From Clostridiales bacterium (GTDB lineage Bacteria; Bacillota; Clostridia; Christensenellales; Borkfalkiaceae), in contig SVIX01000008.1 of assembly GCA_015069285.1 (NCBI GenBank), forward strand, positions 1 through 35,619: DNA of 35,619 nucleotides, written 5' to 3'. How positions within the stretch are numbered: the first letter of the stretch is position 1; every line of letters starts with the position of its first letter. Under the pieces are notes generated by a model. It was not told the DNA's origin and made no database searches. It was given only the letters and a program-made list of their open reading frames with translations. A program made the position numbers and the translations under genes. Below, in pieces: positions 5,105-35,547 of this stretch.

Positions 5105-5626
5105 TTAATCTTCTTTCGTATAAACCCAAGGCGTTGCTACGCCGTCAACGTAACGCCAATAATTCCCGTCGTACGCCGTGCCGTTGCTATTAAGCGCAGG
5201 CTCGCTTTCGCTGTAATAATACCGCGTTGCAATGCGTAACGGGTGGTTAGTATAATCAATCGAAATTTCTAACCATTCGTCCACCGTTCCTTTATAATAT
5301 ACACTCGTCAAGTTACTGCAATTATGGAACGCATGAGTACCGATAGAAGTTACGCTGTCGGGAATAACGATACTCGTCAAACTACTACAATCAGAGAACG
5401 CATAAGGATCGATATAAGTTACGCTGTCGGGAATAACGATACTCGTCAAGCTACTGCAATAATAGAACGCCTGAGTACCGATACTCGTGATAGAGTCGGG
5501 AATGGTGATACTCGTCAAGCTACTGCAACCAGAGAACGTATCTTTGCCGATATTCGTGACAGAGTCGGGAATGGTAATACTCGTCAAACTATTGCAAAGA
5601 GAGAACGCACCCGTTAAAGACCTCAA
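5105..5626 (-). pseudogene. 3' fragment of a BspA-like LRR protein gene split by the serine-recombinase element
   Basis: About 166 residues belong to the original gene; the first few codons (a TTG and the next six, to about 5607) lie in the element end. Four BspA/Treponema-type leucine-rich repeats are visible (consensus CSSLTSITIPDSVTSIG..AF), followed by a C-terminal cap (VYYKGTVDEW) and a terminal W/Y-rich tail. The matching 5' part of the gene is at 11722-13011 on the same strand. Joining 13011-11729 to 5603-5105 across the shared AACGCA gives 1782 nt with no frame error, 593 residues, and the repeat continues as GDSAF-SLCNSL. The fragment has no visible ribosome site or promoter and is probably not expressed in the integrated state. 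Confidence 0.9.
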
Positions 5627-7065: not shown

Positions 7066-7404
7066 TTATCCGTCTAGTATAGATAGCGAATATATATCGT
7101 CAAAGAAAATCTTTTCTTCGCCAATAAGTAAATATTGATATACAGTGTTTATTCTTGAAACTGTGCCTAGTAAATCATAATAATGACCTTTACGATAGAA
7201 CGTCATTTCAATTTCAGTATTATTAGTGATACGAGATAGGGTATATGATAATTCTTCCTTTGTTTCTTCAGAGAAATCGTGTTTTGCAACTCTACTTAAT
7301 TTTTCTTCACGCTCTAAAAGTGCTTCTTTTAATCCTTTCATTGCGTCGAATGGAAGAAATTGTTTGGCTCTATCTACCCTATTCACCGTTGTGACCTCCG
7401 ACAA
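7066..7404 (-). CDS. YolD-like family protein
   Basis: 112 residues. The N-terminal RAKQFLPFDAMKGLKEAL block is the hallmark of YolD-like proteins, small factors regularly encoded next to UvrX/UmuC-type polymerases on phages, plasmids and integrative elements of Firmicutes. The C-terminal half is beta-rich (EMTFYRKGHYYDLLGTVSRI). The start overlaps the end of the polymerase gene by 26 bp, so translation is almost certainly coupled. It is the last gene of the LexA-like/polymerase/YolD operon. Its biochemical role is unknown; a UmuD-like accessory function for the polymerase has been suggested for the family. Confidence 0.8.
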   Translation of the reverse strand: MSEVTTVNRVDRAKQFLPFDAMKGLKEALLEREEKLSRVAKHDFSEETKEELSYTLSRITNNTEIEMTFYRKGHYYDLLGTVSRINTVYQYLLIGEEKIFFDDIYSLSILDG

Positions 7405-8644
7405 GTTTATTTCTGATTATAGCCGTTGCGCCTTCTTGCAGATCGGCAGCACGTAACATTGAATTTTTGCCGAACTTGTCTTTAATATCAAGGACAGCGT
7501 GTTCCAAATGTTTTTCTCGTTCTACCTTTTCAAAATCCGTAAACAGGTCATAACCCTCACAACCTTCATCCATAACATTATTAAATGTTATTCCTAGTCG
7601 TCTTATTGGAACTTTAGGGTTGGTGGTCCGTCTAAAAAGAGTGTTAACGTAGTCACTTATAACTGAGAAAACGTGAGTTGTGACCGTCATTTTTATCGTT
7701 CCACCTGTAGGGGGAATTACGTCCTTAGAGTAACCAACATAGATAGAGATACTATTTGTTACAACGTGTTCACGCATCATTCTTTGACAACCACTTAGTG
7801 TCATTTCACTTATAACAATAGCCGCTTTTTCAATGTCGTAATCGCTAAATAATATCTGAGAGGAAGATATAGATTTAGACTTACTCTTATAGGATTTTAT
7901 ATCTGCAATCGTGCAACTTTCTCTGCCCCAAGCGTGGTCTATAAGTAATTCAGCATTTATACCAAATTCTTTATACAACACGTCAGTAGGACATTTAGCC
8001 ACACCCTGCATATCGTATATAGCATATTTCGCTAACCGTTTAGCCGTTCCGTAGGCAATTTGCCAAAAATCGGTTATCGGACGATGAGCCCAGAGCGTTG
8101 CACGATAGGTTTCTTCGTCTAAATACCCAATATGATCGGATACATGCTTTGCCGTTATATCTAATGCTATTTTAGCTAAATAAAGATTTGTGCCAATACC
8201 ACAAGTAGCAGGTATACGAGTTTTATCTGCGATTTCGTTTATCAGCATTTTCGCAAAATCTTTAGGGGTTTTATTAAATATAGATAAGTAATCTGTTACG
8301 TCCAAAAAGGACTCATCAATAGAATAGACGTGGATATCTGCAGCATCTATATAATGTAAATAAAGCTCGTAAATATCAGCAGTATATTCTATATATTTTT
8401 TCATACGTGGCATCGCAACTATGTAGTGGATATTTTTAGGAATATCGCTTAATCTACAACGGTTTTTGACACCTAAACTTTTCATTTTTGGTGATATAGC
8501 AAGACACAAAGCATTTTTACCTCTGGATTCATCGGCAACTACAAGGTTTGTTTCAAACGGGTTAAGTCCTCGTTCGGCACATTCAACACTTGCATAAAAA
8601 CACTTCATATCTATACATAAATATGTTCGTTGTTTAGCAGCCAT
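7379..8644 (-). CDS. Y-family (UmuC/UvrX-like) error-prone DNA polymerase
   Basis: 421 residues, the usual length for UvrX/UmuC-type polymerases of mobile elements. The palm signatures are intact: LCIDMKCFYASVE with the first catalytic Asp and the steric-gate Tyr, and YSIDESFLD with the catalytic Asp-Glu pair. Helix-hairpin-helix residues follow (GIGTNLYLAKIALD), then a little-finger domain in the second half. The protein should carry out translesion synthesis. The start has an AGGAGCG ribosome site. The gene lies 24 bp after the LexA-like gene and overlaps the yolD-like gene, so all three form one operon read from the promoter at 9332-9360 and should be induced by DNA damage. The sequence appears complete. 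Confidence 0.9.
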   Translation of the reverse strand: MAAKQRTYLCIDMKCFYASVECAERGLNPFETNLVVADESRGKNALCLAISPKMKSLGVKNRCRLSDIPKNIHYIVAMPRMKKYIEYTADIYELYLHYIDAADIHVYSIDESFLDVTDYLSIFNKTPKDFAKMLINEIADKTRIPATCGIGTNLYLAKIALDITAKHVSDHIGYLDEETYRATLWAHRPITDFWQIAYGTAKRLAKYAIYDMQGVAKCPTDVLYKEFGINAELLIDHAWGRESCTIADIKSYKSKSKSISSSQILFSDYDIEKAAIVISEMTLSGCQRMMREHVVTNSISIYVGYSKDVIPPTGGTIKMTVTTHVFSVISDYVNTLFRRTTNPKVPIRRLGITFNNVMDEGCEGYDLFTDFEKVEREKHLEHAVLDIKDKFGKNSMLRAADLQEGATAIIRNKLVGGHNGE

Positions 8645-8668
8645 AAATACGCTCCTGCTCGAACATTA

Positions 8669-9283
8669 TTACACCTCCAAGTCTTTAATAACCTTTACTG
8701 CTATACCTTGAATAACAATATTGTCGTAATACATATCTTTCATTCTATTGTTTTCAGGGTGCAATCGTATTTGTTTACGTTCACCATCTAAATAATAGCG
8801 TTTTAAGGTAGCTTCCCCATCTTCTGTAAGAGCAACAACAATTTGCCCTTGATTAGCCGTTTCCTGTTGCCTTATAACAACATAATCGCCATCATTTATA
8901 CCAGCATTAATCATACTGTTGCCTTTAGCTCTTAATACAAAATGTTTTCCTGTGCCTAAGAACTTGGAAGAAATAGTAACATAACTTTCAATATTTTCTT
9001 CAGCAAGTATAGGTGTGCCACACGCAACATCACCAACAACGGGTAATCTTTCAATGCCAACCATAGCCTTATTGATTTCTACGGTGCTTAGACCATAAAA
9101 AGAGCCATTACGAGAGATAAGACCTTTTTCTTCCATATCCGTTAGATATTTGCTAACGTTCCCTTTACTAAGACCGACCTTATCTGCAATTTCTTGTAAA
9201 GAAGGGATTTCGTTGTCAGTGAAGAACCTGTTGTTAATACAAGCGATTATTTCTTGCATTAAACTTTCATTTTTCGTTCTCAT
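8669..9283 (-). CDS. LexA-like (S24 family) self-cleaving repressor of the element
   Basis: 204 residues. The N-terminal winged helix-turn-helix (SLQEIADKVGLSKGNVSKYL) is followed by the S24 peptidase domain: cleavage site in GDVACGTP (Cys-Gly, as in several phage repressors), catalytic Ser in GNSMINAGINDGD and catalytic Lys in EATLKRYY. It should repress its own operon and be cleaved with RecA filaments during DNA damage. The promoter and a perfect palindromic operator (9305-9318) lie directly upstream, the operator just downstream of the -10. The gene is first in an operon with the polymerase and yolD-like genes. It might be called LexA, but its location on the element argues for a private regulator. 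Confidence 0.88.
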   Translation of the reverse strand: MRTKNESLMQEIIACINNRFFTDNEIPSLQEIADKVGLSKGNVSKYLTDMEEKGLISRNGSFYGLSTVEINKAMVGIERLPVVGDVACGTPILAEENIESYVTISSKFLGTGKHFVLRAKGNSMINAGINDGDYVVIRQQETANQGQIVVALTEDGEATLKRYYLDGERKQIRLHPENNRMKDMYYDNIVIQGIAVKVIKDLEV

Positions 9284-9791: not shown

Positions 9792-10107
9792 TTAAATGGA
9801 ATTGTCTTTCTTTTTTTGGTTTTTTGGTATCAGAAAAAGTCTTGTTGTCAAGTGAAAAAATTATCGCTTAAACCATTAAATAGAAATATCCATAGGACAA
9901 TATTTTTTTCTTGGGAACGCATTTCAACTGAATAATTCTACCCAACCCTTGACCACTGCACCTTTTCCCGATGAGAGGTGGTTGTCGAAAGACAATTCTA
10001 CAAATTATGGAGTTTGGATATGTTGAAAAAAAATATTTTTAAGTCGAATAAATTGTTCGAGTTTAACTTTTACAATGTGTTCAATAATAAGAAAAGGAGG
10101 GTTTGAA
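9792..10107. other. Non-coding upstream region of the recombinase gene
   Basis: AT-rich. TTGTC-GAAA-GACAA forms a small hairpin near 9983-9996. TCGAATAAATTGTTCGA at 10044-10060 is an inverted repeat overlapping a weak TTGAAA-17-GAATAA promoter candidate (10023-10051). A strong AAAAGGAGGG site precedes the recombinase start. No ORF is supported here. Confidence 0.45.
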
Positions 10108-11667
10108 ATGAAAACCGCAGTTATTTATGCTCGTTATTCAAGTGATAGACAAACCGAGCAGTCTATCGAAGGTCAAGTTCGTGTTTGTAATGACTTTGCC
10201 GAAAGAAATGACATTTTAATCGTTCATTCATATATCGACAGAGCTACAACAGGCACGAATGATAACCGTGAGCAGTTCCAACAAATGATGAAAGACAGTG
10301 AAAAACGTGCTTGGGACTATGTTCTGGTTTATAAGCTTGACCGTTTCTCTCGTAATAAATACGAGATGGCTATGCACAGAAAACGCCTTAAAGACAATGG
10401 CATTAAAATTCTGTCTGCTATGGAAAACATACCCGAAACACCGGAAGGCATTTTGCTTGAATCGTTGCTTGAAGGTATGAACCAATACTACTCAGAAGAA
10501 TTATCCCAAAAAACAAGGCGTGGTCAAAGAGAAACACGCCTTAAAGGTTTACACTGTGCTGGTAAATTAAATTACGGTTATTACACCGAAAAGAAAAAAG
10601 TAAAGATAAATGAAGAAGAGGCTGCCGTTGTAAAAGAGATATTCACAAGGTATGCTTCAGGTGAACGTGGTATTGACATAGAAAGAGATTTTGCCGAACG
10701 TGGTATTCTCTATCGTGGAAAACCGTTTACTGCCGCTAATATGTATGTTATCCTTCACGTTGAAAAATACACAGGAAAATATGTATTACACGGAGAAACG
10801 TATAACGACATTTATCCCCCTATCATTACACCTGAGCTTTACGAAATAGCAAGAAAAAAAATAGACGCTAATAGATATGGTAAACACGTTCCAGACGTTA
10901 CATATTTACTTAGAGGAAAAGCGTTTTGTGGTCAATGTGGTGCAAGACTTACTTCCTACACTGGAACATCAAGAACTGGTCGTGTCTTTAGGTATTACAA
11001 ATGCTATAATGCGATTGGAAAAAGAGATTGCCAAACTAAACACGTTCAAAAAGACGTTTTAGATAGGATTGTTATTGATACGATATTCAATCTTATAGAT
11101 GGCGATAATTTGGCGTTCCTTGTAGATGAGATTTATAAGGCACACAATAAAAGCCTCGAAAATGAGAACCCTGTAAAAATGCTCGAAAAACAGTTGCAGC
11201 AAATCAATAAATCGTTAAGCAATATCTTAGTCGCTATTGAAAACGGTATATTTACGGATACCACAAAGGAACGCTTGCAAGAACTTGAAACCACTAAAAA
11301 AGAATTGCAAGAGAAACTTATAATGGAACGTATGCGTGAAGAGATACGAATTGAGAAACCTCAAATAGAGAAATATCTTAAAAACGGAGCGAAAGAAAAT
11401 CCTCAGATGATGCTCGATCTGTTAGTTGAGAAAGTGTTCGTTCATAATGATAAAATTGAATTACTACTGAAATATACTTCAGAGCCGAAACCTACATCAC
11501 CCGACGATGAAGATAAAAATAACCCCGATGGTAACAAAGACCGTCGGGGTTTTGCTATTATGCAAATGATTACTAAATATGACGTTTTCACTACTCAAGG
11601 ATTAAAAAAAGGCTTTGAGCCACGACTCAAAGACACCTACGAAATTCCTGTTATTATTGAAATATGA
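10108..11667 (+). CDS. Large serine recombinase (site-specific integrase)
   Basis: 519 residues from the ATG at 10108 (AAAAGGAGGG upstream); an earlier ATG at 10075 has no ribosome site. The N-terminal resolvase domain shows VIYARYSSDRQTEQSIEGQ with the catalytic Ser in YSSDRQ, and VYKLDRFSRN carrying the catalytic Arg residues. A recombinase domain follows (GYYTEKKKVKINEEE onward), then a zinc ribbon (CGQCGARLTSYTG...YYKCYN...C), then a coiled coil (about residues 355-410) of the kind needed for synapsis. It is the integrase for the surrounding element: it lies at the right end, with recognisable att arms at both boundaries. Residues after ~455 (acidic, Pro-rich, then RRGFAIMQMI) look like an added tail encoded over a terminator-like hairpin. 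Confidence 0.93.
   Translation: MKTAVIYARYSSDRQTEQSIEGQVRVCNDFAERNDILIVHSYIDRATTGTNDNREQFQQMMKDSEKRAWDYVLVYKLDRFSRNKYEMAMHRKRLKDNGIKILSAMENIPETPEGILLESLLEGMNQYYSEELSQKTRRGQRETRLKGLHCAGKLNYGYYTEKKKVKINEEEAAVVKEIFTRYASGERGIDIERDFAERGILYRGKPFTAANMYVILHVEKYTGKYVLHGETYNDIYPPIITPELYEIARKKIDANRYGKHVPDVTYLLRGKAFCGQCGARLTSYTGTSRTGRVFRYYKCYNAIGKRDCQTKHVQKDVLDRIVIDTIFNLIDGDNLAFLVDEIYKAHNKSLENENPVKMLEKQLQQINKSLSNILVAIENGIFTDTTKERLQELETTKKELQEKLIMERMREEIRIEKPQIEKYLKNGAKENPQMMLDLLVEKVFVHNDKIELLLKYTSEPKPTSPDDEDKNNPDGNKDRRGFAIMQMITKYDVFTTQGLKKGFEPRLKDTYEIPVIIEI
11521..11554 (+). terminator. Terminator-like hairpin inside the recombinase coding sequence
   Basis: AACCCCGATGGT (11521-11532) pairs with ACCGTCGGGGTT (11540-11551), one mismatch, followed by TTT. 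It lies about 115 bp before the stop codon, in frame with the protein. Confidence 0.5.
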
Positions 11668-11699: not shown

Positions 11700-11734
11700 T
11701 ATATTAAGTGTTCAATTGGGGTTAAACAAACGCA
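11700..11734. other. attR of the element
   Basis: Element arm GTGTTCAATTG (11708-11718) and GTTAAAC, then core AACGCA (11729-11734), then LRR-gene sequence. The arm is an inverted copy of that in attL. Confidence 0.7.
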
Positions 11735-13011
11735 GAATCACCGATACTCGTGACGCTTTCGGGGATTACAACGCTCGTCAAGTTATCGCAATCATAGAAC
11801 GCATCTTCGCTGATACTCGTTACGCTATACGTAGTATCTTTATACGTGATACTTGCTAGAATATTTGCCGTTTGGATATTTCTTGCTTGCTTTATAACCG
11901 TTGCAACACCGTCCTTTATGCCGTAGCGAAGAGTATCTATCGCTACGTGGATATATCCGTCGCTTGTCACGTCGTTGTTATTACAATCCCAAACTACGGG
12001 ACAGTCAGAAGTATTCCAATCATAATCCCAACCGCTCGGCTGGCTTGTCGTTTCGCAATAAATCGTCAAGCCACTGCAACCAGAGAATGCACCGTGACCA
12101 ATAGAAGTTACGCCGTCGGGGATTGTGATACTCGTCAAGCCACTGCAACCAGAGAATGCACCGTGACCAATAGAAGTTACGCCGTCGGGGATTGTGATAC
12201 TCGTCAAGCTACTGCAATAATAGAACGCAGAATCACCGATAGAAGTTACGCCGTTGCCTATTGTTACGCTCGTCAAGCTACTGCAACCAGAGAATGCACC
12301 GTAACCAATAGAAGTTACGCCGTTGCCTATTGTTACGCTCGTCAAACTACTGCAACCATTGAACGCCAGCTCACCGATACTCGTGACGCTATCGGGAATG
12401 GTGATACTCGTCAAACTACTGCAACCATTGAACGCATAATCCGCTATTTTTTCAACGCCGTCGGAGATAATCACTTTTTGCGCTCTCCCACCTGCCACGC
12501 CAAAAAAGTAGTCTAATACTTCGCTTACTTTTTTGCCTTTATAGGTAGCAGGAATGGTAATTTCCGAAAGATAGCTTGCTTTGCCTGCCTTTACGCCGTA
12601 CGTGCCGTTGCCCAACGGATAAAATTCTAATCCTTGCGCATTTTCCTCCGCGTCCGTAGCGTTCTCGTCGTCCTTGTCAACCACCACGCCGAGGTTTTTC
12701 GGCTCGCCCACGGTTAATTCTACTATCAATTCCCCGTTTTCGTTTACGTAGATATTTTTTATCCCAATGCCGTCGTCGCCCTTAATGCTCGCCAGCCATT
12801 GTTCGTAAGAAAGCGGTGTTTCGCTTTGCGCGTTTGCGTATACGACGTACTGCGCGTACACCTTCTCTATTTCCGATGGCTCCTCCTGCGTTTGCTCTGA
12901 TTGCGATTGACTTTGATTGACGCTATCCGTTTCGCACGCGGTAAAAGCAAGCGCGCTCACGAGAGTACACCCCAAGCAAAGTAGAGTAAGTAACCGTTTT
13001 TTCTTTTTCAT
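11722..13011 (-). pseudogene. 5' part of the BspA-like LRR lipoprotein gene, interrupted by the element
   Basis: The first 427 residues are original; the element adds one Val and a stop. The N-terminus is a lipoprotein-type signal (KKKKRLLTLL...LAFTAC, Cys ~26), followed by a Gln/Glu-rich linker. A short domain ends in the YEQWLASIKGDDG motif common in such proteins. Then come tandem BspA-type LRRs (CSSLTSITIPDSVTSIG...AF), an insert domain (about 300-385) and more LRRs broken at GDSAF. BspA-like proteins are surface adhesins or ligand binders. A GGAGG site lies 6 bp upstream of the ATG. Because signal peptide and promoter side are intact, a truncated lipoprotein could still be made. The 3' part is at 5105-5609. 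Confidence 0.88.
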
Positions 13012-23709: not shown

Positions 23710-23994
23710 AGGCTCTGTCACGTCACTTGGTTGATTTTTTACGGAAAAATCCTACGGAATACTGCGTATTTTGCTCGCTTTCGTACAAGTTAAGTACGCG
23801 CGCTCACAAAATACTTGTCTTTCTTGCATTTTTCTCGTAAAACGCAAAAATCCTACGAAATGCTTCGTATTTTGCTCGCTTTCGTACAAGTCAAGTACGC
23901 GCGCTCACAAAATATTTGTCTTTCTTGCATTTTTCTCGTAAAAAAACACAAAAAAAGATTTTTTGTTAATCAACCATTCTCTGTGACATAGCCT
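23710..23994. repeat. MITE-like element, copy 1 (285 bp) with internal duplication
   Basis: Left end AGGCTCTGTCACGTCACT plus TGGTTGAT and right end ATCAACCATTCTCTGTGACA plus TAGCCT form ~26-bp imperfect terminal inverted repeats. A ~98-bp internal unit (AAAATCCTACG to TTTTTCTCGTAAAA) is present twice in tandem with few differences. No ORF is inside. Confidence 0.8.
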
Positions 23995-28256: not shown

Positions 28257-28321
28257 TTTGTAAAAACGGTATTTCCCTTCGCGTGGTACGCCAAGACAAA
28301 GCGTGCAATTTATGAAAGAGA

Positions 28322-28580
28322 TTGCCACGGCAACGTTCGTTGCCTCGCAATGACTGAAAAGTGTCATTACGAGGAGCGAAAGCGACGAAGTAATCCCGTG
28401 GTGTAAAGTGCATTACCTCGCCTCTCTGTCACTCTGGAGCGAAGCGATAGAGTCTACAAGATTCTATCGGTCACTTCGTTCCCTCCAGAATGACACTCTA
28501 CCTGTCATTACGAGGAGCGAAAGCGACGAAGTAATCCCAAGGAAGAAAGAGATTGCCACGTTTACGTCTTAGAATGACAG
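28322..28580. repeat. Mosaic palindromic repeat array, left of the fibre operon
   Basis: Starts with a 52-bp module (28322-28373, GGCAACG/CGTTGCC core then GTCATTACGAG). It continues with the GAGCGAAAGCGACGAAGTAA module (twice, near 28372 and 28512) and a CACTCTGGAG...CCAGAATGACA module carrying a GATAGAGTC/GATTCTATC hairpin. The array at 35286-35547 uses the same modules in the same orientation. The ORFs called here are repeat translations. Confidence 0.8.
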
Positions 28581-28836: not shown

Positions 28837-28865
28837 TTGACAAATACGGAAAAATGTGATAAAAT
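28837..28865 (+). promoter_or_regulatory. Promoter of the TetR/fibre operon
   Basis: TTGACA (28837-28842) and TAAAAT (28860-28865), 17-bp spacer; leader of about 127 nt. Confidence 0.85.
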
Positions 28866-28920
28866 ATTTTCGAAGTAACATCGGATAGTGTATTCGTGGA
28901 ACGGTTGCGTCTTAAAAGTT

Positions 28921-28953
28921 CATTCGATTACCCATAATCGATGTAATTTTTTT
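28921..28953 (+). promoter_or_regulatory. Terminator-like hairpin in the leader of the TetR gene
   Basis: CATTCGATTA (28921-28930) pairs with TAATCGATG (about 28935-28943) with one bulge, followed by TAATTTTTTT. It could attenuate transcription into the operon. Confidence 0.45.
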
Positions 28954-28999
28954 CTAAAGCTATGTAGCAAATGCTTTCAAGTCTAAGAGGAGGAGAAAA

Positions 29000-29587
29000 A
29001 TGGAGGCGCAACGTGAAAAAATACGTACGGCATTAATGGACGGCGTGATAAAGGTGGTTGTAAACAACGGTTTTGACAAAGCCACCACGCGCGCTATTAC
29101 GTCAAGCGTATCGGACGTCAGGTTGAACGACGCGTACATTTACCGCTACTTTCAAGACAAGGAAGATTTGTTTCAAAAAACGTTTATGCGGGCGGATAGA
29201 AAATTCATTCAAACGATAAACGATAACCTGCATTATATCGAAGAAACGGACGTAGAAATCAAAGAACGCTGTCGAAAGCTTTGGTATGCCTGCTGGGAGT
29301 TCCTTTTAGGGAATAAAGACGAATACATTTTTTACTTGCGGTATTACTATTCTGCGTACTTCAAGGAATATGCGTTAAAAGAGCATATGGCGCTTTATAA
29401 AGCGTTTATGGAACGGTTTGAAAAATACGTTCCGCAAACGAAGGACGTGGCAGGTATGATGCATACGCTTTTAGAGTTTGCGTTGAGCGAGCTTGCGAAA
29501 GCGGACGACCCGAATCTTCGTTTAAACGAACGGGAAAAGAGAAATTTTGAATTGGTTTGGAATATAATTTTATTGTATTTTTCATAG
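29000..29587 (+). CDS. TetR-family transcriptional regulator
   Basis: 195 residues. The N-terminal helix-turn-helix of TetR type covers about 8-55 (IKVVVNNGFDKATTRAITSS and DAYIYRYFQDKEDLF, the last being the typical YxYFxxKEDLF segment). The rest is an all-helical ligand/dimerisation domain rich in aromatic residues (FYLRYYYSAYFKEYAL), suggesting a hydrophobic pocket. A strong GAGGAGG site precedes the ATG. It is the first gene of the fibre operon (36 bp to the next), so it probably controls its own transcription and that of the TasA/SipW genes, directly or through a divergent target; no operator palindrome was identified with confidence. Confidence 0.85.
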   Translation: MEAQREKIRTALMDGVIKVVVNNGFDKATTRAITSSVSDVRLNDAYIYRYFQDKEDLFQKTFMRADRKFIQTINDNLHYIEETDVEIKERCRKLWYACWEFLLGNKDEYIFYLRYYYSAYFKEYALKEHMALYKAFMERFEKYVPQTKDVAGMMHTLLEFALSELAKADDPNLRLNEREKRNFELVWNIILLYFS

Positions 29588-29622
29588 AATAAATGCGACA
29601 AGATTGTGGAGATGGATAGCGT

Positions 29623-30120
29623 ATGAAAAATAAAAACATCAATATGTTGTTGGTAGCGTTGTGTTTATTTGCGGTAATATCGATTATGCTTATCGTGTTC
29701 CTCGATAAAGCGCACGACGATTTCAAAGAAGACATAAGAATCAACGCAGACGGCGTAACGGAAAAAACTTTAACGGTTAAAAATTTAAAATTGACCCCTA
29801 CGCAAAAGGCGGAATACGAAATACACCTTACCTGCGCGGCGAGCGGTGGCTACGATTTTTTCCTTGACTACGAGGAAACGCAAGACGGCGGTATGAAGAA
29901 TTTCGTAAGCGTTACCGTTCTTTGCAACGACGATAACGTTTATCAGGGAAGTTTGAGCGAACTTTTGGATAAAGACGCAATCGTAGAATTCGACGGAACG
30001 TTAGAGGCGGAAGAACCGCTTATCGTGACGATACGTTACGAAATGCCCGAAACCGTCGGCAACGACGCCCAAGGCACGTCAGCCGATTTTAAAATACATC
30101 TTAAGGTGAAAAAAAATTAA
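29623..30120 (+). CDS. Membrane-anchored protein with TasA-like ectodomain
   Basis: 165 residues. One N-terminal membrane helix (about 7-27, LLVALCLFAVISIMLIVFL) and a short extracellular linker precede a beta-rich domain (INADGVTEKTLTVKNLKLTP onward). The late segment YEMPETVGNDAQGTSADFKI is similar to the end of TasA-type domains (MP...GN.AQG.SADF). Unlike the three downstream proteins, the hydrophobic segment is not followed by the ALF[S/T] cleavage motif; it reads FLDKAHDDF. It may therefore stay membrane-anchored and act as a fibre base or minor subunit. A weak ribosome site (TGGAGAT) lies upstream. It is the second gene of the operon, 40 bp before the first peptidase. Confidence 0.65.
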   Translation: MKNKNINMLLVALCLFAVISIMLIVFLDKAHDDFKEDIRINADGVTEKTLTVKNLKLTPTQKAEYEIHLTCAASGGYDFFLDYEETQDGGMKNFVSVTVLCNDDNVYQGSLSELLDKDAIVEFDGTLEAEEPLIVTIRYEMPETVGNDAQGTSADFKIHLKVKKN

Positions 30121-30159
30121 TCAACAGTTGAAAAAGTCAAACGATTGAAAGGGAATTAT

Positions 30160-30936
30160 ATGGAAAAGCGGAAAATAGTGGGAAAAGTAGCAAGAATCAT
30201 CGGAAACGTATTGCTGTATATGTTCATCGTCATAGCGGTGCTTGGCGTTATCTTAACGATAACGGGTAAAAAGGACGCGGACGGCGCAACGACGATATTC
30301 GGTAAGCAAATGCGTATCGTGCAATCGCCTTCAATGGAAAAATGCGACGATACGGACGTGAGCGGTTACGAGATAAAAGACATTCCGACAAAATCAATGG
30401 TTTTTATCGAAGTCGTACCCGAAGATAAGAACGAGGCGGAAAAATGGTACGCGGACGTAAAAGTCGGCGACGTGTTGACCTTTAAATACGTGTACGTTCG
30501 TCAAGAAACGATAACCCACCGCGTTACGAAAATCGAAGAAAAAGAAACGGGCGGATATATCTTTCATTTAGAGGGCGACAACAAAGCCGAAGAGTCGGAA
30601 ACGCTTACGCAAACGATAGATACGTCGCTCGATAACTCGCCCAATTACGTCGTGGGTAAAGTAACGGGTAAAAGCTATTTTCTCGGTTTGCTCGTTTCTA
30701 CGTTGAAAGCTCCGGCGGGAATCGTATGCGTCATTATTTTACCGTCGTTGATAATTATCGTTTTGGAAATTCTTAAAATCGTCCGTATGTTCCACAAGGA
30801 AAGAAAGAAGAAGGACGAACAGGTAAAAGAAGAACAGCAAAACGAGATAGAAGAATTAAAACGTAAGCTCGCGCAATTAGAGGCAAATCAAACGCCACAA
30901 GCGGAAAATACGCAGGCGGAAAGTACGAAAGAATAA
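30160..30936 (+). CDS. sipW: SipW-type (ER-like) signal peptidase I, first copy
   Basis: 258 residues from the ATG at 30160, with GAAAGGGA upstream; a longer frame start lacks one. An N-terminal membrane helix (about 16-35) is followed by the catalytic Ser in IVQSPSMEK (Ser58) and by His in ETITHRVTK (His120), the Ser-His arrangement of archaeal/ER-type peptidases to which SipW belongs, rather than Ser-Lys. A second membrane helix (about 190-210) is followed by a cytosolic tail predicted as coiled coil (KEEQQNEIEELKRKLAQLEA). Bacillus SipW (190 aa) lacks such a long tail. In Bacillus SipW matures TasA and TapA; here the substrates are presumably the three ALF-motif proteins downstream. Confidence 0.88.
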   Translation: MEKRKIVGKVARIIGNVLLYMFIVIAVLGVILTITGKKDADGATTIFGKQMRIVQSPSMEKCDDTDVSGYEIKDIPTKSMVFIEVVPEDKNEAEKWYADVKVGDVLTFKYVYVRQETITHRVTKIEEKETGGYIFHLEGDNKAEESETLTQTIDTSLDNSPNYVVGKVTGKSYFLGLLVSTLKAPAGIVCVIILPSLIIIVLEILKIVRMFHKERKKKDEQVKEEQQNEIEELKRKLAQLEANQTPQAENTQAESTKE

Positions 30937-30996
30937 GGAAATAACGACGAGAGTCGTGATAATAAAATAAAAACTTTTTAGAAAGGAGTAAAAAGT

Positions 30997-31746
30997 ATGG
31001 AAATTTTATTTATGGTGTTTATGGTAATCGTTTCGATTATGGCGTTGTTCGCCGTAATGGTTGTCTTCAGAGACGTGGTAAAAGAAATTCTTTTAGCGCG
31101 CCGTGAAAGAAACGCTACCGCAAACGTGGCGCAACAAGCGCCTGTGGCAGAACCTGTGGTAGAGCAGGCAGTAGAAGAACCCGTGGAAGCCCCCGTGGAA
31201 GAAGAAGTAGTAGAAGAAACGGCGGAAGAAACGGTGGAAGAACCCGTGGAAGAAGAAGTTGCAATCACGGAAGAAGACGACGGAAAAATCAGTTTCTCCG
31301 CAAAGCAACAACAAACGTTAGATGAAAAATATCTTGCGCTCTCTTCCGAAGCAAAGAATTGGTACGACGAAATTATCAAGTACGCGTCGGCTGTTGAAAA
31401 CAGTAAACGTTATAAAAACGCGCGTTACGAAGAATATAAAGTCGGTAAAAACCGTCTTGTCCGTTTGTTGATTAAACGCGGTGTGATTAATTGCGAATTT
31501 ATCTTACATAACAGCGATTTCAGAAACTACGTACAAGAAAACAAAATCTCCGTAAAGCAATCCGCAACGACGATGCTCGTAGAAGATGCTACAACGGTTG
31601 ACGCGGTAAAGAACAGTATCGACATCGTAGTATCGGCTATCGCGGAAGAAAAGGAATATAAAAAGCAATTAGCGAGAGAAAAACGCAGAGCGGCAAGAGC
31701 GAACAGTAAAGCCGTTGCGGAAGAAACTGAAACGGAAAACGCGTAA
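30997..31746 (+). CDS. Single-pass membrane protein with Glu/Val-rich linker, unknown domain
   Basis: 249 residues. One N-terminal membrane helix (about 4-26) is followed by a positively charged segment (LLARRERN), so the bulk should be cytosolic. Residues ~50-92 are an acidic Glu/Val/Pro repeat (PVEEEVVEETAEETVEEPVE). The C-terminal domain (about 100-225) is helical/mixed (SAKQQQTLDEKYLALSSEAK, LIKRGVINCEFILHN) and ends with a basic coil (KKQLAREKRRAARANSKAVA). No known family is recognised. It has AAAGGAG upstream and lies between the first peptidase and the TasA-like genes, suggesting a scaffold or regulator of the export machinery; this is inference from position. Confidence 0.65.
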   Translation: MEILFMVFMVIVSIMALFAVMVVFRDVVKEILLARRERNATANVAQQAPVAEPVVEQAVEEPVEAPVEEEVVEETAEETVEEPVEEEVAITEEDDGKISFSAKQQQTLDEKYLALSSEAKNWYDEIIKYASAVENSKRYKNARYEEYKVGKNRLVRLLIKRGVINCEFILHNSDFRNYVQENKISVKQSATTMLVEDATTVDAVKNSIDIVVSAIAEEKEYKKQLAREKRRAARANSKAVAEETETENA

Positions 31747-31893
31747 GCGTCCGCTTGGAGCGAAACGCTCTAAATTACGATATATATAGTTATATATTAT
31801 ATAAATTAAGGAAGTAAATCCTAATAAAACCGTTGTTTGACGCGTGTAAACGCGCCTACATACAAAAAATCTAAAAAAAGGAGGTAGAAAATC
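31747..31893. other. Gap before the first TasA-like gene
   Basis: Contains GAGCG-AAA-CGCTC (31758-31770), a TATATA-rich stretch with possible but weak -10 elements (31780-31803), a GCGT-GTAA-ACGC hairpin, and a strong AAAAGGAGG site before the GTG start. An internal promoter is possible but not demonstrable. Confidence 0.4.
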
Positions 31894-32538
31894 GTGACAA
31901 CAAAAAAGAGAAGTATCCTTTTATCCATTTTGACGTTGATGCTTTGTTTGGCGCTTGTGGCTGTCGGTACGTACGCACTCTTTTCCGATCAAGTAACGCT
32001 TGAAAACCACTTGCAAGCGGGAACTTTGGACGTTACGCTTACGCGTACGAGTTTGAAGACGAAAACGTTGGACGACACAACGGGTTTCCTCGTGGATAAT
32101 CCCGTAAACGACGAAGACGTGGACTTTTCCAAACCTACCACGAGAAACGTATTCGATCTTGAAACGGGTGATTTGATTGTTCCGCAAAGTTCGTATTTGG
32201 CAGAAATGAAAATCGAAAACAACAGCGACGTAGCGTTTAAGTATTGGATTGAAGTCGTATTGAAAGATTCGACCGACCCTGCTTTTGCTGAACAACTTGA
32301 CGTAAAAGTAACGACGGAAAAAATGCCACAAGGAACTTCAGCTACTTTAAGTGCAGGGTTGAAAGTTGGAAGTGAACAAACGCCGATTGGTACGTTGGCG
32401 AAAGGCACTTCGCAAACGTTCACCATTAGCGTAACGTTTGTCGACGATAATAACGTGAACAACGATGCGATGAATGATGAGTTGAATTTCGACATCGTCG
32501 TGCACGCAGTACAAGAAACGGAAGATCCGAACGCTTAA
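31894..32538 (+). CDS. TasA-like secreted fibre protein 1 (SipW-dependent)
   Basis: 214 residues, GTG start with AAAAGGAGG upstream. The leader has a basic N-region, hydrophobic core (SILTLMLCLALVAVG) and the segment GTYALFSDQVTLENHLQAG, directly comparable to Bacillus TasA (GTWAAFNDIK...FASGTLDL); cleavage is expected around ALFS. The mature part is a TasA/camelysin-type beta-sandwich with LDVTLTRTSLK, an insertion (DNPVNDEDVDF), and IENNSDVAFKYWIEVVLKD. It should be exported by the Sec system and matured by the SipW-type peptidases, then polymerise or cap fibres. It is probably a major subunit because it is closest to TasA. Confidence 0.85.
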   Translation: MTTKKRSILLSILTLMLCLALVAVGTYALFSDQVTLENHLQAGTLDVTLTRTSLKTKTLDDTTGFLVDNPVNDEDVDFSKPTTRNVFDLETGDLIVPQSSYLAEMKIENNSDVAFKYWIEVVLKDSTDPAFAEQLDVKVTTEKMPQGTSATLSAGLKVGSEQTPIGTLAKGTSQTFTISVTFVDDNNVNNDAMNDELNFDIVVHAVQETEDPNA

Positions 32539-32558
32539 AAGCAGTAAATCGACCTCAT

Positions 32559-32599
32559 TCTTACCGCTCTTAGGGGAAGAGGCGAAACGGCTGGTAAGA
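32559..32599. other. Nested hairpin between TasA-like genes 1 and 2
   Basis: Outer stem TCTTACC (32559-32565) with GGTAAGA (32593-32599), inner stem CTCTT (32567-32571) with AAGAG (32577-32581). No T-run follows. An RNA-processing or stability element is possible. Confidence 0.5.
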
Positions 32600-32632
32600 G
32601 CAAAACTAAATTATATAGGAGTAATAAATAAA

Positions 32633-33805
32633 ATGAAAATGAAGAAAACAGCATTAGCGTCTTCCGTAGCAACGATTGCACTTTGCTCGACGCTTATTGC
32701 AGGTTCGACTTTCGCGTTATTCACGACGCAAGACAAGGTCAACGTAGCAGTTACTGCAGGTCAAGTAGCGCTTACGGCAAATCTTGTGGACGATTCTCTT
32801 AAAACTTGGTCGCTTTACGAAACGGAAGCCGACGCACGTACAGACGGTACGTTCGTCAACGGCGGTACGGCGGAAATCACGGACGAAGCAAACGTCAAAA
32901 TTGATTTGATGACGCCCGGCGACGTTGTGAAATTTACGATTGACGTAGAAAACGCAAGCAACGTACATACCCAATACAGAGTACGTATGGTTTCGACCAA
33001 CAGCGACCCCAACGTAGTAGATTTAACGCCCGCGCTTACGACGACGGCGATTATCGAAGGCGTAGAATACGCGGTAACGGGTAGCGAAAACGCAACGCTT
33101 TGGAAGTACGTAGAAGCGAACAAGGAGATCAAGGATATCGAAGTTCGCGTAGAATTCCCCAACACGGACGATTCGTTCGGACCTGAAAACAAGGACAACG
33201 CTTATCAAAACGGCCACGCGGATATTACGTTTATCGTAGAAGCGGTACAAAGCAACGCGAAGATTGTTGCTTCGGACGAAGCAAGCTTGCAAGAAGCTTT
33301 GCTTAACGGTGCGGTGGCAGTCAGCGGTAACGGCGCGACGGTAAACACGGAAGGCCTTGACCTTAATAAAAAGGACGCTGCGTTGGAAGACGTTACGATT
33401 GTTGCACAAGGCGGAGAGGGCTACGGTATTGCTTATTACCAAGGCGAAAAATTAACGCTTGGCGCAGGTGCAACCATTCAAGCGAACAACGACTACGGTA
33501 TTCTCGTTGTGCAAAACGGTGGCGATATCGTGTTGAACCAAGGCAGTAAAATTGTAAACACCCAATCTGGTGGTGCTTGTATCGGTGTAATGCCTTATCC
33601 TAATCAAGAAGTAAATATCTATTTGAACGACGTTGATTTATTGGAAGGCGATGTCGGTATTTACATTTTAGGCGCGATGGCGGGTTCGAAGGTAAATCTT
33701 CACTTCCCCAATGAAGAAGTGATGAATCACTACGTTGGTAGGGTAAAGAAAGAAAATAACTTTATCGACTTGAATGACCCTTACGTATCGTGGATCATCG
33801 GCTAA
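32633..33805 (+). CDS. TasA-like protein 2 with C-terminal beta-helix-like domain
   Basis: 390 residues. Leader with motif GSTFALFTTQDKVNVAVTAG, again the SipW-dependent type. Residues ~40-205 are a TasA-like beta-sandwich (LMTPGDVVKFTIDVENASNV, then NTDDSF... and ITFIVEAVQSN). The C-terminal ~170 residues (ASDEASLQEALLNGAVAVSG onward) look like a right-handed beta-helix of the pectate-lyase style: repeated short strands with Gly/Asn turns (GAGATIQANNDYGILVVQNG, GSKIVNTQ). It lacks recognisable catalytic residues, so a carbohydrate- or host-binding role is more likely than an enzyme. Ribosome site TAGGAG upstream. This extended member may be an adhesive tip or decorated subunit. Confidence 0.8.
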   Translation: MKMKKTALASSVATIALCSTLIAGSTFALFTTQDKVNVAVTAGQVALTANLVDDSLKTWSLYETEADARTDGTFVNGGTAEITDEANVKIDLMTPGDVVKFTIDVENASNVHTQYRVRMVSTNSDPNVVDLTPALTTTAIIEGVEYAVTGSENATLWKYVEANKEIKDIEVRVEFPNTDDSFGPENKDNAYQNGHADITFIVEAVQSNAKIVASDEASLQEALLNGAVAVSGNGATVNTEGLDLNKKDAALEDVTIVAQGGEGYGIAYYQGEKLTLGAGATIQANNDYGILVVQNGGDIVLNQGSKIVNTQSGGACIGVMPYPNQEVNIYLNDVDLLEGDVGIYILGAMAGSKVNLHFPNEEVMNHYVGRVKKENNFIDLNDPYVSWIIG

Positions 33806-33860
33806 AAAAAACAAATCAAAAAAAGACAAATTGCTTTAAATAAGCAACAAGGAGGTAATA

Positions 33861-34442
33861 ATGGACCGTTATAAATTTAAAAAGAGCTCGTTTATTATAG
33901 CGGTGTTGGCTATATTACTGTGCCTTGTATCAATCACAGGCGCAACGCTCGCTTTGTTCACAAGTGACGTAAACGACGGAAAAATCGGTATAAATGCGAC
34001 GGCAGGCGACGTGAAGGTGGATATCGTGGATATTTCCGATAATCCCCAAACGCTCGTCGGCGACGTTTTGAATTTCCAAACGTCATCAAACAAAAAAGAA
34101 ATTCTCTTCGAACCGGGCGCAACGTATTATACCGAGGGTTTCCGCGTGAAAAATTTAGGGAACATTCCCATCAATTTCATACTTTACGTTAGCGAAGACG
34201 GCAAAACCTCTAAAGATTTCGCGGACGCGTTTGACGTTTGGATTACAACCAATCCAGACGATATTCAAAACGCTGAAAAATTACGTGAATTTAGCGGTCG
34301 GTTGGAAGTTGGACAAAGCAGTGGTGCGTACTATTTGGTCTTTAAAATGAAAGAAACGGCAGGAAATGAATTCCAAGACAGATCGTTCACGGGCGTAGGC
34401 ATAACCGTCAACGCGGTACAAGGTAACGTCAATCTTGGATAA
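33861..34442 (+). CDS. TasA-like secreted protein 3
   Basis: 193 residues. The leader begins with a short basic stretch (MDRYKFKKSS), a hydrophobic core (FIIAVLAILLCLVSI) and motif GATLALFTSDVNDGKIGINA, again TasA/SipW type, with AG and D-V following (TAGDVKVDIV). The mature domain is a TasA-like beta-sandwich (FEPGATYYTEGFRVKNLGNI and PINFILYVSEDG) ending in ITVNAVQGN. AAGGAGG lies before the ATG. It is 12 bp upstream of the second peptidase, so the two are likely translated together, and this may be its dedicated substrate. Confidence 0.83.
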   Translation: MDRYKFKKSSFIIAVLAILLCLVSITGATLALFTSDVNDGKIGINATAGDVKVDIVDISDNPQTLVGDVLNFQTSSNKKEILFEPGATYYTEGFRVKNLGNIPINFILYVSEDGKTSKDFADAFDVWITTNPDDIQNAEKLREFSGRLEVGQSSGAYYLVFKMKETAGNEFQDRSFTGVGITVNAVQGNVNLG

Positions 34443-34454
34443 AGGAGAAAACAT

Positions 34455-35255
34455 ATGTCAAAGGAACAAATAAAAAAAATACTCGGCATCGCGTCTAAAG
34501 TGGTGACGTGGATAGTCGTAGCGTTTGCGGTTTTTATGATGATTTTCACCATTTTTTCCGTACGAACCTTCGACAATAACGAACGGAGTATCTTCGGTAG
34601 GAAGTTTTATATCGTACAAACGAACTCAATGAGTTTGTCCGAAAAAAATAAGGACGATGAGGTGCATTTCGATGCAGGCGATATCGTTATTATTAAAAAC
34701 GTAGACGACCCGTATTCGTTGCAAGCAGGCGATATTATTTCGTTTATTTCCCAAAATTCGGTGAGCTTTAACGAAACGGTAACCCACCGTATCCGCGAAG
34801 TAAAATACAACGAGAAAGGTAGAGTAGAAGGCTACGTAACGTACGGTACGAATACGGACACGAACGACGAACAAATTGTAGAACCCGAATACGTATTGGG
34901 CGTGTATAGCGGAAAACTTCCTAAACTTGGTCATTTCTTTCAATTCTTAAAGTCAACCCCGGGATATATCGTGTGTATTCTCGTCCCGTTCTTGCTCCTG
35001 ATTCTCTATCAGGGCGTAAACACCGTGCTGTTGTTTAAAAAATACCAAAAAGAAAAAACAGCGGATTTGCAAGCGGAACGCGAACAAATCGCCGAAGAAC
35101 GCAAACAGTCGGAACAAATGTTACGCGAATTAGAGGCGTTGCGTGAAAAATTGGCGCAATCGGGTGTGGATATCTCTACGCCAGCGTCAGCGCAACAACC
35201 TACTACGGAACAGGAAAGTTTCGAAGAAAAGCAAGAAATCTTTGACGAAGAATAA
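34455..35255 (+). CDS. sipW: SipW-type signal peptidase I, second copy
   Basis: 266 residues, AAAGGAG upstream. Membrane helix at about 15-34, catalytic Ser in IVQTNSMSL (Ser58, the same position as in the first copy) and His in TVTHRIREV (His111). A second membrane helix (about 172-190) is followed by a long cytosolic coiled coil (LQAEREQIAEERKQSEQMLR, then LEALREKLAQSG) and a low-complexity tail. The overall design matches the first copy, but the sequences are clearly diverged, so this is an old duplication with possible specialisation. Presence of two SipW-type peptidases in one operon is unusual; Bacillus has one. Confidence 0.87.
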   Translation: MSKEQIKKILGIASKVVTWIVVAFAVFMMIFTIFSVRTFDNNERSIFGRKFYIVQTNSMSLSEKNKDDEVHFDAGDIVIIKNVDDPYSLQAGDIISFISQNSVSFNETVTHRIREVKYNEKGRVEGYVTYGTNTDTNDEQIVEPEYVLGVYSGKLPKLGHFFQFLKSTPGYIVCILVPFLLLILYQGVNTVLLFKKYQKEKTADLQAEREQIAEERKQSEQMLRELEALREKLAQSGVDISTPASAQQPTTEQESFEEKQEIFDEE

Positions 35256-35285
35256 AAGATACGCTCGACGTGTTTTCCTCAGAAC

Positions 35286-35547
35286 TTGCCACGGCAACGT
35301 TCGTTGCCTCGCAATGACTGTAAAGTGTCATTACGAGCATAAGCGGAGTAATCCCACGGAAGAAAGGGCGTTACCTCGTCTTTCTGTCACTTAAGGAGCG
35401 AAGGGCTTTAGCCCTGTTCCCTGTCACTCTGGAGGGAACGAAGTGACCGATAGAGTCTAAGAAAGATTCTATCTCTCCGCTATAGAATGACACTTTCCCT
35501 GTCATTACGAGCAAGGTTGCGAAAGCAACCGCGTGGAGCAAATCCCA
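35286..35547. repeat. Mosaic palindromic repeat array, right of the fibre operon
   Basis: Begins with the same 52-bp module as the left array (35286-35337, one mismatch). Then modules with exchanged stems: GGGCT-TTA-GCCC, CACTCTGGAGGGAACGAAGTGA, and GTCATTACGAGC with GGTTGC-GAAA-GCAACC. Orientation is the same as in the left array. Confidence 0.8.

Follow-up and report, generated by a model that had tools for sequence, protein, structure and literature searches.

What might be built from an operon that encodes several TasA-type proteins together with two SipW-type signal peptidases, and how would the work be divided between the two enzymes? The operon lies at the end of contig SVIX01000008.1 of a Clostridiales bacterium (family Borkfalkiaceae), and the window analysed here is this one whole contig (35,619 nt) of a 1.41-Mb genome that is 76% complete. 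To our knowledge, sortase-free adhesin display by Gram-positive gut bacteria is poorly known. We consider it probable (about 60%) that the operon encodes relatives of TasA and SipW that build a membrane-anchored fibre, likely with large adhesin-like domains, through two lanes of SipW-type peptidases.

Proteins of the operon

Eight open reading frames (ORFs) lie on the + strand with intergenic gaps of 12–147 bp, and all were confirmed at the positions given in a preliminary description of this DNA. They encode a TetR-type regulator (29000..29587, 195 aa; Pfam TetR_N 24.3 bits, cut-off 24), the membrane protein g2 (29623..30120, 165 aa), the endoplasmic reticulum (ER)-type, SipW-like signal peptidase Sip1 (30160..30936, with an alternative TTG start at 30145), the single-transmembrane protein g4 (30997..31746), the subunits g5 (31894..32538), g6 (32633..33805) and g7 (33861..34442), and Sip2, a second ER-type signal peptidase (34455..35255). 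The contig ends 364 bp past Sip2, so genes downstream of Sip2 may be missing. The operon is more than a chance arrangement, because its gene order recurs in other genomes. No Rfam family passes its gathering cut-off in the window. A 57-nt direct repeat, 95% identical, is present on both flanks of the operon (28317-28373 and 35281-35337), and more intergenic repeats lie at 23710 and 28074.

Sip1 and Sip2 are 26% identical. Their catalytic pairs, Ser58/His120 and Ser58/His111, respectively, are confirmed as previously assigned and occupy invariant columns in an alignment of 23 peptidases. Histidine in place of the bacterial lysine is the mark of an ER-type signal peptidase. Against TIGR02228 (ER/archaeal-type signal peptidase I, cut-off 51.85 bits) Sip2 scores 59 bits and Sip1 40.4, and both stay below the cut-off of NF046067, the SipW equivalog family (53.6 and 81.1 bits, cut-off 190; 2e-14 for Sip1). 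Judged by these profiles, both are SipW-type peptidases and not SipW itself. In a peptidase tree (n = 74), 31 high-scoring Sip1 sequences fall into one group, along with one short sequence (support 0.899), and 18 high-scoring Sip2 sequences into a separate group, along with two of locus L077 (support 0.905). The C-terminal tail of Sip1 is coiled-coil-like by eye. A third SipW-type peptidase is encoded on contig C43 of the same genome (L102:4847-13493), together with its own substrates and a 1544-aa protein; the leaders of these substrates read A↓YL or A↓YF (the arrow marks the putative cut), and the peptidase and its substrates are possibly a third lane.

Sequence profiles place g5, g6 and g7 among the TasA-type proteins. 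The TasA/camelysin-type subunit g5 exceeds the cut-offs of both PF12389, named camelysin metallo-endopeptidase (1.1e-11), and TIGR04088, stays below that of the BsaA family TIGR04090 (14.0 bits, cut-off 60), and has a weak profile match to AbpX (PDB 9sj2, E 0.46). In g6, a TasA-like N-domain of ~215 aa (PF12389 21.8 bits, cut-off 22.5) is followed by a C-terminal extension of ~175 aa; its homologues are often longer, for example 974, 1217 and 1420 aa, and one of 791 aa bears a Pectate_lyase_5 domain. The Sip2-linked, TasA-like subunit g7 matches no family in Pfam or the curated family profiles, and is aligned to the g5 family by hhalign at 99.6%. The leaders of the three proteins read GTYA↓LFSD (g5), GSTFA↓LFTT (g6) and GATLA↓LFTS (g7), in which the ALFS/ALFT/ALFT motif noted earlier is confirmed. 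An expanded substrate set with two ER-type peptidases in a TasA-type system, as the preliminary description had it, is thus supported.

The membrane protein g2 has one N-terminal membrane helix with a predicted N-in/C-out topology, and matches no family over cut-off in Pfam or the curated family profiles. Structure prediction, for which g2 and g4 were the modelled proteins, gives its ectodomain a TasA fold and so bears out the fold anticipated for this protein. In the model a strand comes straight after the transmembrane helix, and g2 appears to keep this helix at the place of the TasA donor strand; the SipW cleavage motif is found in none of 51 aligned members of the g2 family. g2 occupies the tapA slot of the tapA-sipW-tasA order, which fits an anchoring or starting role. 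The partner protein g4 has one transmembrane segment, a Glu-rich linker and a conserved domain that is predicted to be cytosolic, and is likewise unannotated, with no family over cut-off in Pfam or the curated family profiles. The predicted fold of this domain has a weak frataxin/YjbR/YdhG likeness; the structural matches are marginal, and a solved structural relative was rejected on that ground. A sequence-profile search of the PDB with g4, g2 and g5 returned no convincing relative.

Gene order and upstream elements in relatives

We surveyed 151 genomes of the same family, including the genome of the window (G000). Sip2 has a match in 89 of them and g4 in 72. Among 40 stretches around Sip2 or g4 matches, one of them from the window's own genome, the order g2-SipW-g4-g5-g6 is found in 13 (L066, L080-L085, L087, L088, L091, L092, L099 and L101). 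A further 28 named loci are the matches of a g4 profile scan of named genomes, and ten of their contigs overlap the 40 stretches. Conserved gene order, chosen beforehand as a test along with the TasA fold, holds in this set: g2-SipW-g4-g5 is contiguous in 23 of the 28, and the full run g2-SipW-g4-g5-g6-g7-SipW is present in seven (L104, L105 and L109-L113). The other five comprise three loci without g2, L121, which stops after g4, and L129, with g4 alone. An operon unique to this genome was rejected, since the order recurs in relatives. All 28 assemblies are titled uncultured or metagenome-assembled genome (MAG) Clostridia, Clostridiales, Oscillospiraceae or Firmicutes, and the colon, cecum or rectum of sheep, deer, goat or buffalo is named in 17 titles; many relatives thus come from animal guts, and they are uncultured Clostridia, not members of the genus Clostridium that had been proposed.

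The two peptidases also occur in separate modules. Among the 40 stretches, L069, L072 and L075 carry g2-g4-g5, large substrates and Sip2, with no Sip1. Genome G114 has its core module on one contig and the g7-Sip2 module on another; the modules are likewise on different contigs in G126, where the Sip1 module is g2-Sip1-g5 without g4 or g6. Because the Sip1 and Sip2 modules are separate in these two genomes, the operon of the window is a composite.

The region upstream of g2 is variable. In the window, the candidate operon promoter is a site TTGACA-17-TAAAAT in which TG precedes the second hexamer (28837..28865, + strand), which agrees with the consensus at 11 of 12 positions; the window holds 10 promoter-like sites, compared with a mean of 12.0 in shuffles, and so has no excess. 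The TetR switch that had been proposed did not hold as a general feature. A TetR gene upstream of g2, searched with a profile from two sequences that makes the count a lower bound, is present in at least three of the 28 named loci (L104, L105 and L130), and TetR was rejected as a constant part of the operon; any control of the operon by TetR is conjectural. A conserved operator was rejected as well, the palindrome TCGATTA-N4-TAATCGA at 28924 of the window being found in no other locus examined. At the L116 locus of one relative, a polysaccharide pyruvyl transferase family gene (L116:347-1195) lies 375 bp upstream of g2.

In five relatives a tyrosine recombinase is located just upstream of g2, and behind it stand perfect inverted repeats, 18-24 nt long and separated by 213-280 nt (L107:5338-6650, L108:5142-6594, L111:4915-6688, L112:4915-6688 and L120:649-1832). 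The recombinase is identified by Pfam in L107 and L120, and by similarity in L108, L111 and L112 (two ORFs in L112). Repeats of at least 15 nt occur in six of 46 segments upstream of g2-profile matches (g5 genes are among these matches), compared with four of 137 control segments; the six are the five recombinase loci and L130, in which the repeats are 58 nt apart and no recombinase is present. The inverted repeats have ACATAAYGNNTGTTATGT in common, up to one base, and this sequence occurs five times in the 151 genomes, four times upstream of g2 in G074 and G083. Between the repeat arms of L107 and L120 a promoter-like site points to g2; L108, L111 and L112 have no such site at threshold. From its sequence, this element looks like an invertible, phase-variable promoter. 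Direct proof of inversion was not obtained: the spacers of L111 and L112 lie in one orientation, with 93% identity as they stand and 48% after inversion. Inverted repeats of this kind are absent upstream of g2 in the window. A recombinase of the same kind adjoins an 807-aa A↓WF substrate upstream of the fibre operon of L110 (L110:2303-6031). In the window, a serine recombinase-like ORF (by eye; 10075-11667, + strand) adjoins a LexA/UmuC-like pair (by eye; 7379-9283).

Leader spelling and dispersed substrates

The preliminary description had proposed dedicated peptidase-substrate pairs. The window alone does not show such pairing, because its three leaders all belong to the A↓LF type. We therefore turn to relatives, counting recognised leaders of substrate ORFs at non-duplicate loci with a peptidase of at least 200 bits (ten double loci counted once; Leu, Phe, Ile or Met after Ala taken as L-type). 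Peptidases below 200 bits to both models were excluded, along with the leaders of loci without another peptidase, among them L074, L076, L078, L079 and L098 (A↓WF), L091, L092 and L099 (A↓LF, with A↓IF and A↓AF too in L099) and L102 (A↓YF). Loci with Sip1 only have 44 L-type leaders and no Trp leader, and loci with Sip2 only have 15 Trp leaders, five L-type leaders (g7 twice and g5 three times) and three others (Fisher test on L versus Trp leaders of single-peptidase loci, 1e-10, with loci that are related to one another). Where both peptidases are present, 24 leaders are L-type and eight are Trp, seven of the latter downstream of Sip2.

The same association is seen between genomes. An A↓WF-type leader was found in 18 of the 151 genomes by a DNA pattern scan, which misses the Ser codons AGY and can let some leaders escape. 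In six of the seven genera with such leaders, the carriers are exactly those genomes that match Sip2 best; the seventh, g18, comprises two genomes, and Sip2 finds no match in its carrier. This ranking inside each genus, two of the seven having only two genomes, replaces a genome-level Fisher test whose threshold of 1e-22 was set post hoc.

The genome of the window adds substrates of its own. Searched with a 917-aa substrate from L105 that is linked to Sip2, this genome yielded 40 matches, and a TasA-like N-domain or its end was found at nine places beyond the window and contig C43 (L142-L150, on contigs C13, C74, C19, C62, C18, C67, C42, C53 and C46). The N-domains of these nine proteins are closely similar and their C-terminal parts differ, with a beta-helix-repeat look by eye; the Pfam camelysin domain is present in five of the six that were scanned. 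The cleavage motif is kept in six of the nine, and all six are A↓WF. The neighbouring genes differ (by eye), and the nine are therefore scattered in the genome. Eight of the genes run into a contig end or start less than 90 bp from one, and pairs of their contigs have identical stretches of as many as 122 nt in common, a pattern that assembly breaks at near-identical 5' parts would produce. A junction of the window end with these substrates was rejected, the longest shared stretch being 8-24 nt. In relatives, the L105 substrate contains the leucine-rich repeat (LRR) family LRR_5 (Pfam, 2e-20), and L080 an adhesive domain, Pectate_lyase_5 (25.6 bits, cut-off 24.3). The LRR part of the L105 substrate matches two proteins encoded on the - strand of the window (5105-5626 and 11722-13011), which have 69-nt periodic repeats and are BspA-type leucine-rich-repeat-like in look. 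As for sortase, none was found in the genome of the window, and it is present in one of the 151 family genomes.

A putative fibre, its alternatives and known systems

Passages of published work describe TasA filaments as formed by donor-strand exchange (PMC9674648), and TasA, TapA and BsaA as dependent on SipW (PMC9674648, PMC7395162). By analogy, a fibre of g5 that is started or rooted at g2 would be the simplest reading. Sip1 and Sip2, in the membrane, would cut TasA-like preproteins after the leader alanine (T-x-A↓L-F or T-F-A↓W-F), and the cut would free an N-terminal strand (in g5 the strand starts LFSDQVTLENHL) that, as for TasA, could insert into the following subunit. The main fibre subunit would be g5; entry via the same TasA-like domain is proposed for g6, g7 and the A↓WF proteins, and the longer subunits would thereby show their C-terminal parts, with pectate-lyase-like adhesive or LRR domains in some relatives. 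g2 would take its neighbour's strand, offer none and so tether the fibre to the membrane. g4 may act on the cytosolic side, as a partner of the peptidase or of the export site; this is the weakest step, and a guess. Sip1 would serve the core operon, and the A↓WF set (at the dispersed sites here) would require Sip2, which would probably handle g7 too. A wider version is less likely than not: sortase-free surface display in gut Clostridia, in which the TasA domain is a universal plug for genome-wide beta-helix or leucine-rich adhesins in a g2-rooted donor-strand fibre, the one-residue code A↓LF versus A↓WF sorts subunits between the peptidases, and a recombinase flips the whole operon on and off in some species.

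Several observations weigh against the anchored two-lane fibre. TasA monomers are described as self-complemented (PMC9674648), so that g2 may not accept a strand, and a sequence-level search of the PDB with the profiles of g2 and g5 did not return TasA. The C-terminal part of the window's g6 is short, g6 has no adhesive Pfam domain, no Pfam family passes its cut-off in the C-terminal parts of the dispersed proteins, and the absence of sortase from this genome is weakened by its 76% completeness. As for the lanes, G034 has an A↓WF-type leader and no Sip2 match, the g5 adjoining the single peptidase match, Sip2, of G043, G076 and G141 is still A↓LF, and A↓LF is also the leader of the short g7 at each of the ten loci in which g7 was recognised beside Sip2. 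Strict W-specificity of Sip2 is therefore unlikely, and leader spelling may follow the substrate family, not the peptidase. In our reading, export of A↓WF proteins accompanies Sip2, whereas A↓LF leaders are not confined to Sip1. Of the proposed dedicated pairs, what stands is the association, in relatives, of Sip1 and Sip2 with differently spelled leaders; the window, all A↓LF, and the Sip2-only operons, with A↓LF g5 and g7, do not conform.

It is unlikely that the peptidases of a TasA-type fibre are simply redundant, Sip1 and Sip2 being interchangeable and A↓LF and A↓WF marking substrate families that travel with the two operon modules. The A↓LF g5 beside Sip2 in L069, L072 and L075, the A↓LF g7 beside Sip2 and the Ser/His core common to both enzymes speak for this, whereas the lack of A↓WF among the 44 leaders of Sip1-only loci, the restriction of A↓WF in six of seven genera to genomes with the best Sip2 matches, and the retention of both clades together in seven of the 28 named loci speak against it. 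Quite improbable is the absence of any polymer, with TasA-like domains belonging to separate surface or secreted proteins and marking SipW-dependent export, and with g2 as a membrane protein of the export site. The common domain does stand directly behind the leader, and g5 does match the family named for camelysin, reportedly first described as a separate surface or secreted protein; however, the closest studied relatives, TasA (PMC9674648) and BsaA (PMC7395162), are described as forming filaments, and the operon encodes an anchored copy of the predicted fold alongside several domain-bearing subunits. It is rather unlikely that g2, instead of being an acceptor-type fibre anchor, acts in the membrane like TapA, as a starter or chaperone whose fold is closed and self-complemented. 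Its tapA position upstream of sipW, the strand directly after the helix in the model, and the description of TapA as starting filaments and unable to accept a strand (PMC10151520) would agree with such a role, against which stand the predicted TasA fold and the lack of a cleaved, free N-terminal strand to donate.

The family is nearly without sortase, yet it has a conserved operon with an anchored, predicted TasA fold and the unannotated partner g4, to which the genome of the window adds a dispersed protein set having the fibre domain and leader in common. The system offers a direct genetic test of leader discrimination by SipW-type peptidases and of the rooting of TasA fibres in the cell.

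As first supposed, this exact layout appears to be undescribed among the literature matches listed, which were judged on titles, beginnings of abstracts and passages, with most subscription papers and all bioRxiv preprints outside the search; the names of the domain families gave no paper in it. The operons of the most similar published systems contain a single SipW and, going by the descriptions, no anchored TasA fold. Sortase-dependent pili differ in having a sortase gene. Archaeal bundling pili (AbpA, AbpX), compared by description only, are TasA-like donor-strand filaments (PMC9674648), with AbpX the weak match of g5, and differ in being archaeal. The sipW-tasA/capP/calY region of Bacillus cereus is described with several SipW substrates, sortase-independent filaments and an accessory assembly protein, and differs in having one sipW and in that CapP, unlike g2, is processed by SipW and secreted (PMC13082335). 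Clostridium perfringens sipW-bsaABCRSD is a clostridial SipW operon with several secreted proteins, in which BsaA forms extracellular polymers; it has one SipW and two-component control (PMC7395162), and g5 falls below the BsaA cut-off. Bacillus subtilis tapA-sipW-tasA differs in its one SipW and SinR control (PMC9674648, PMC10151520) and, by its descriptions, in having no membrane-anchored TasA-fold protein, g4 or multi-domain subunits, and has in common with the operon of the window an accessory protein, an ER-type peptidase and a TasA-fold subunit, in the same order within one operon.

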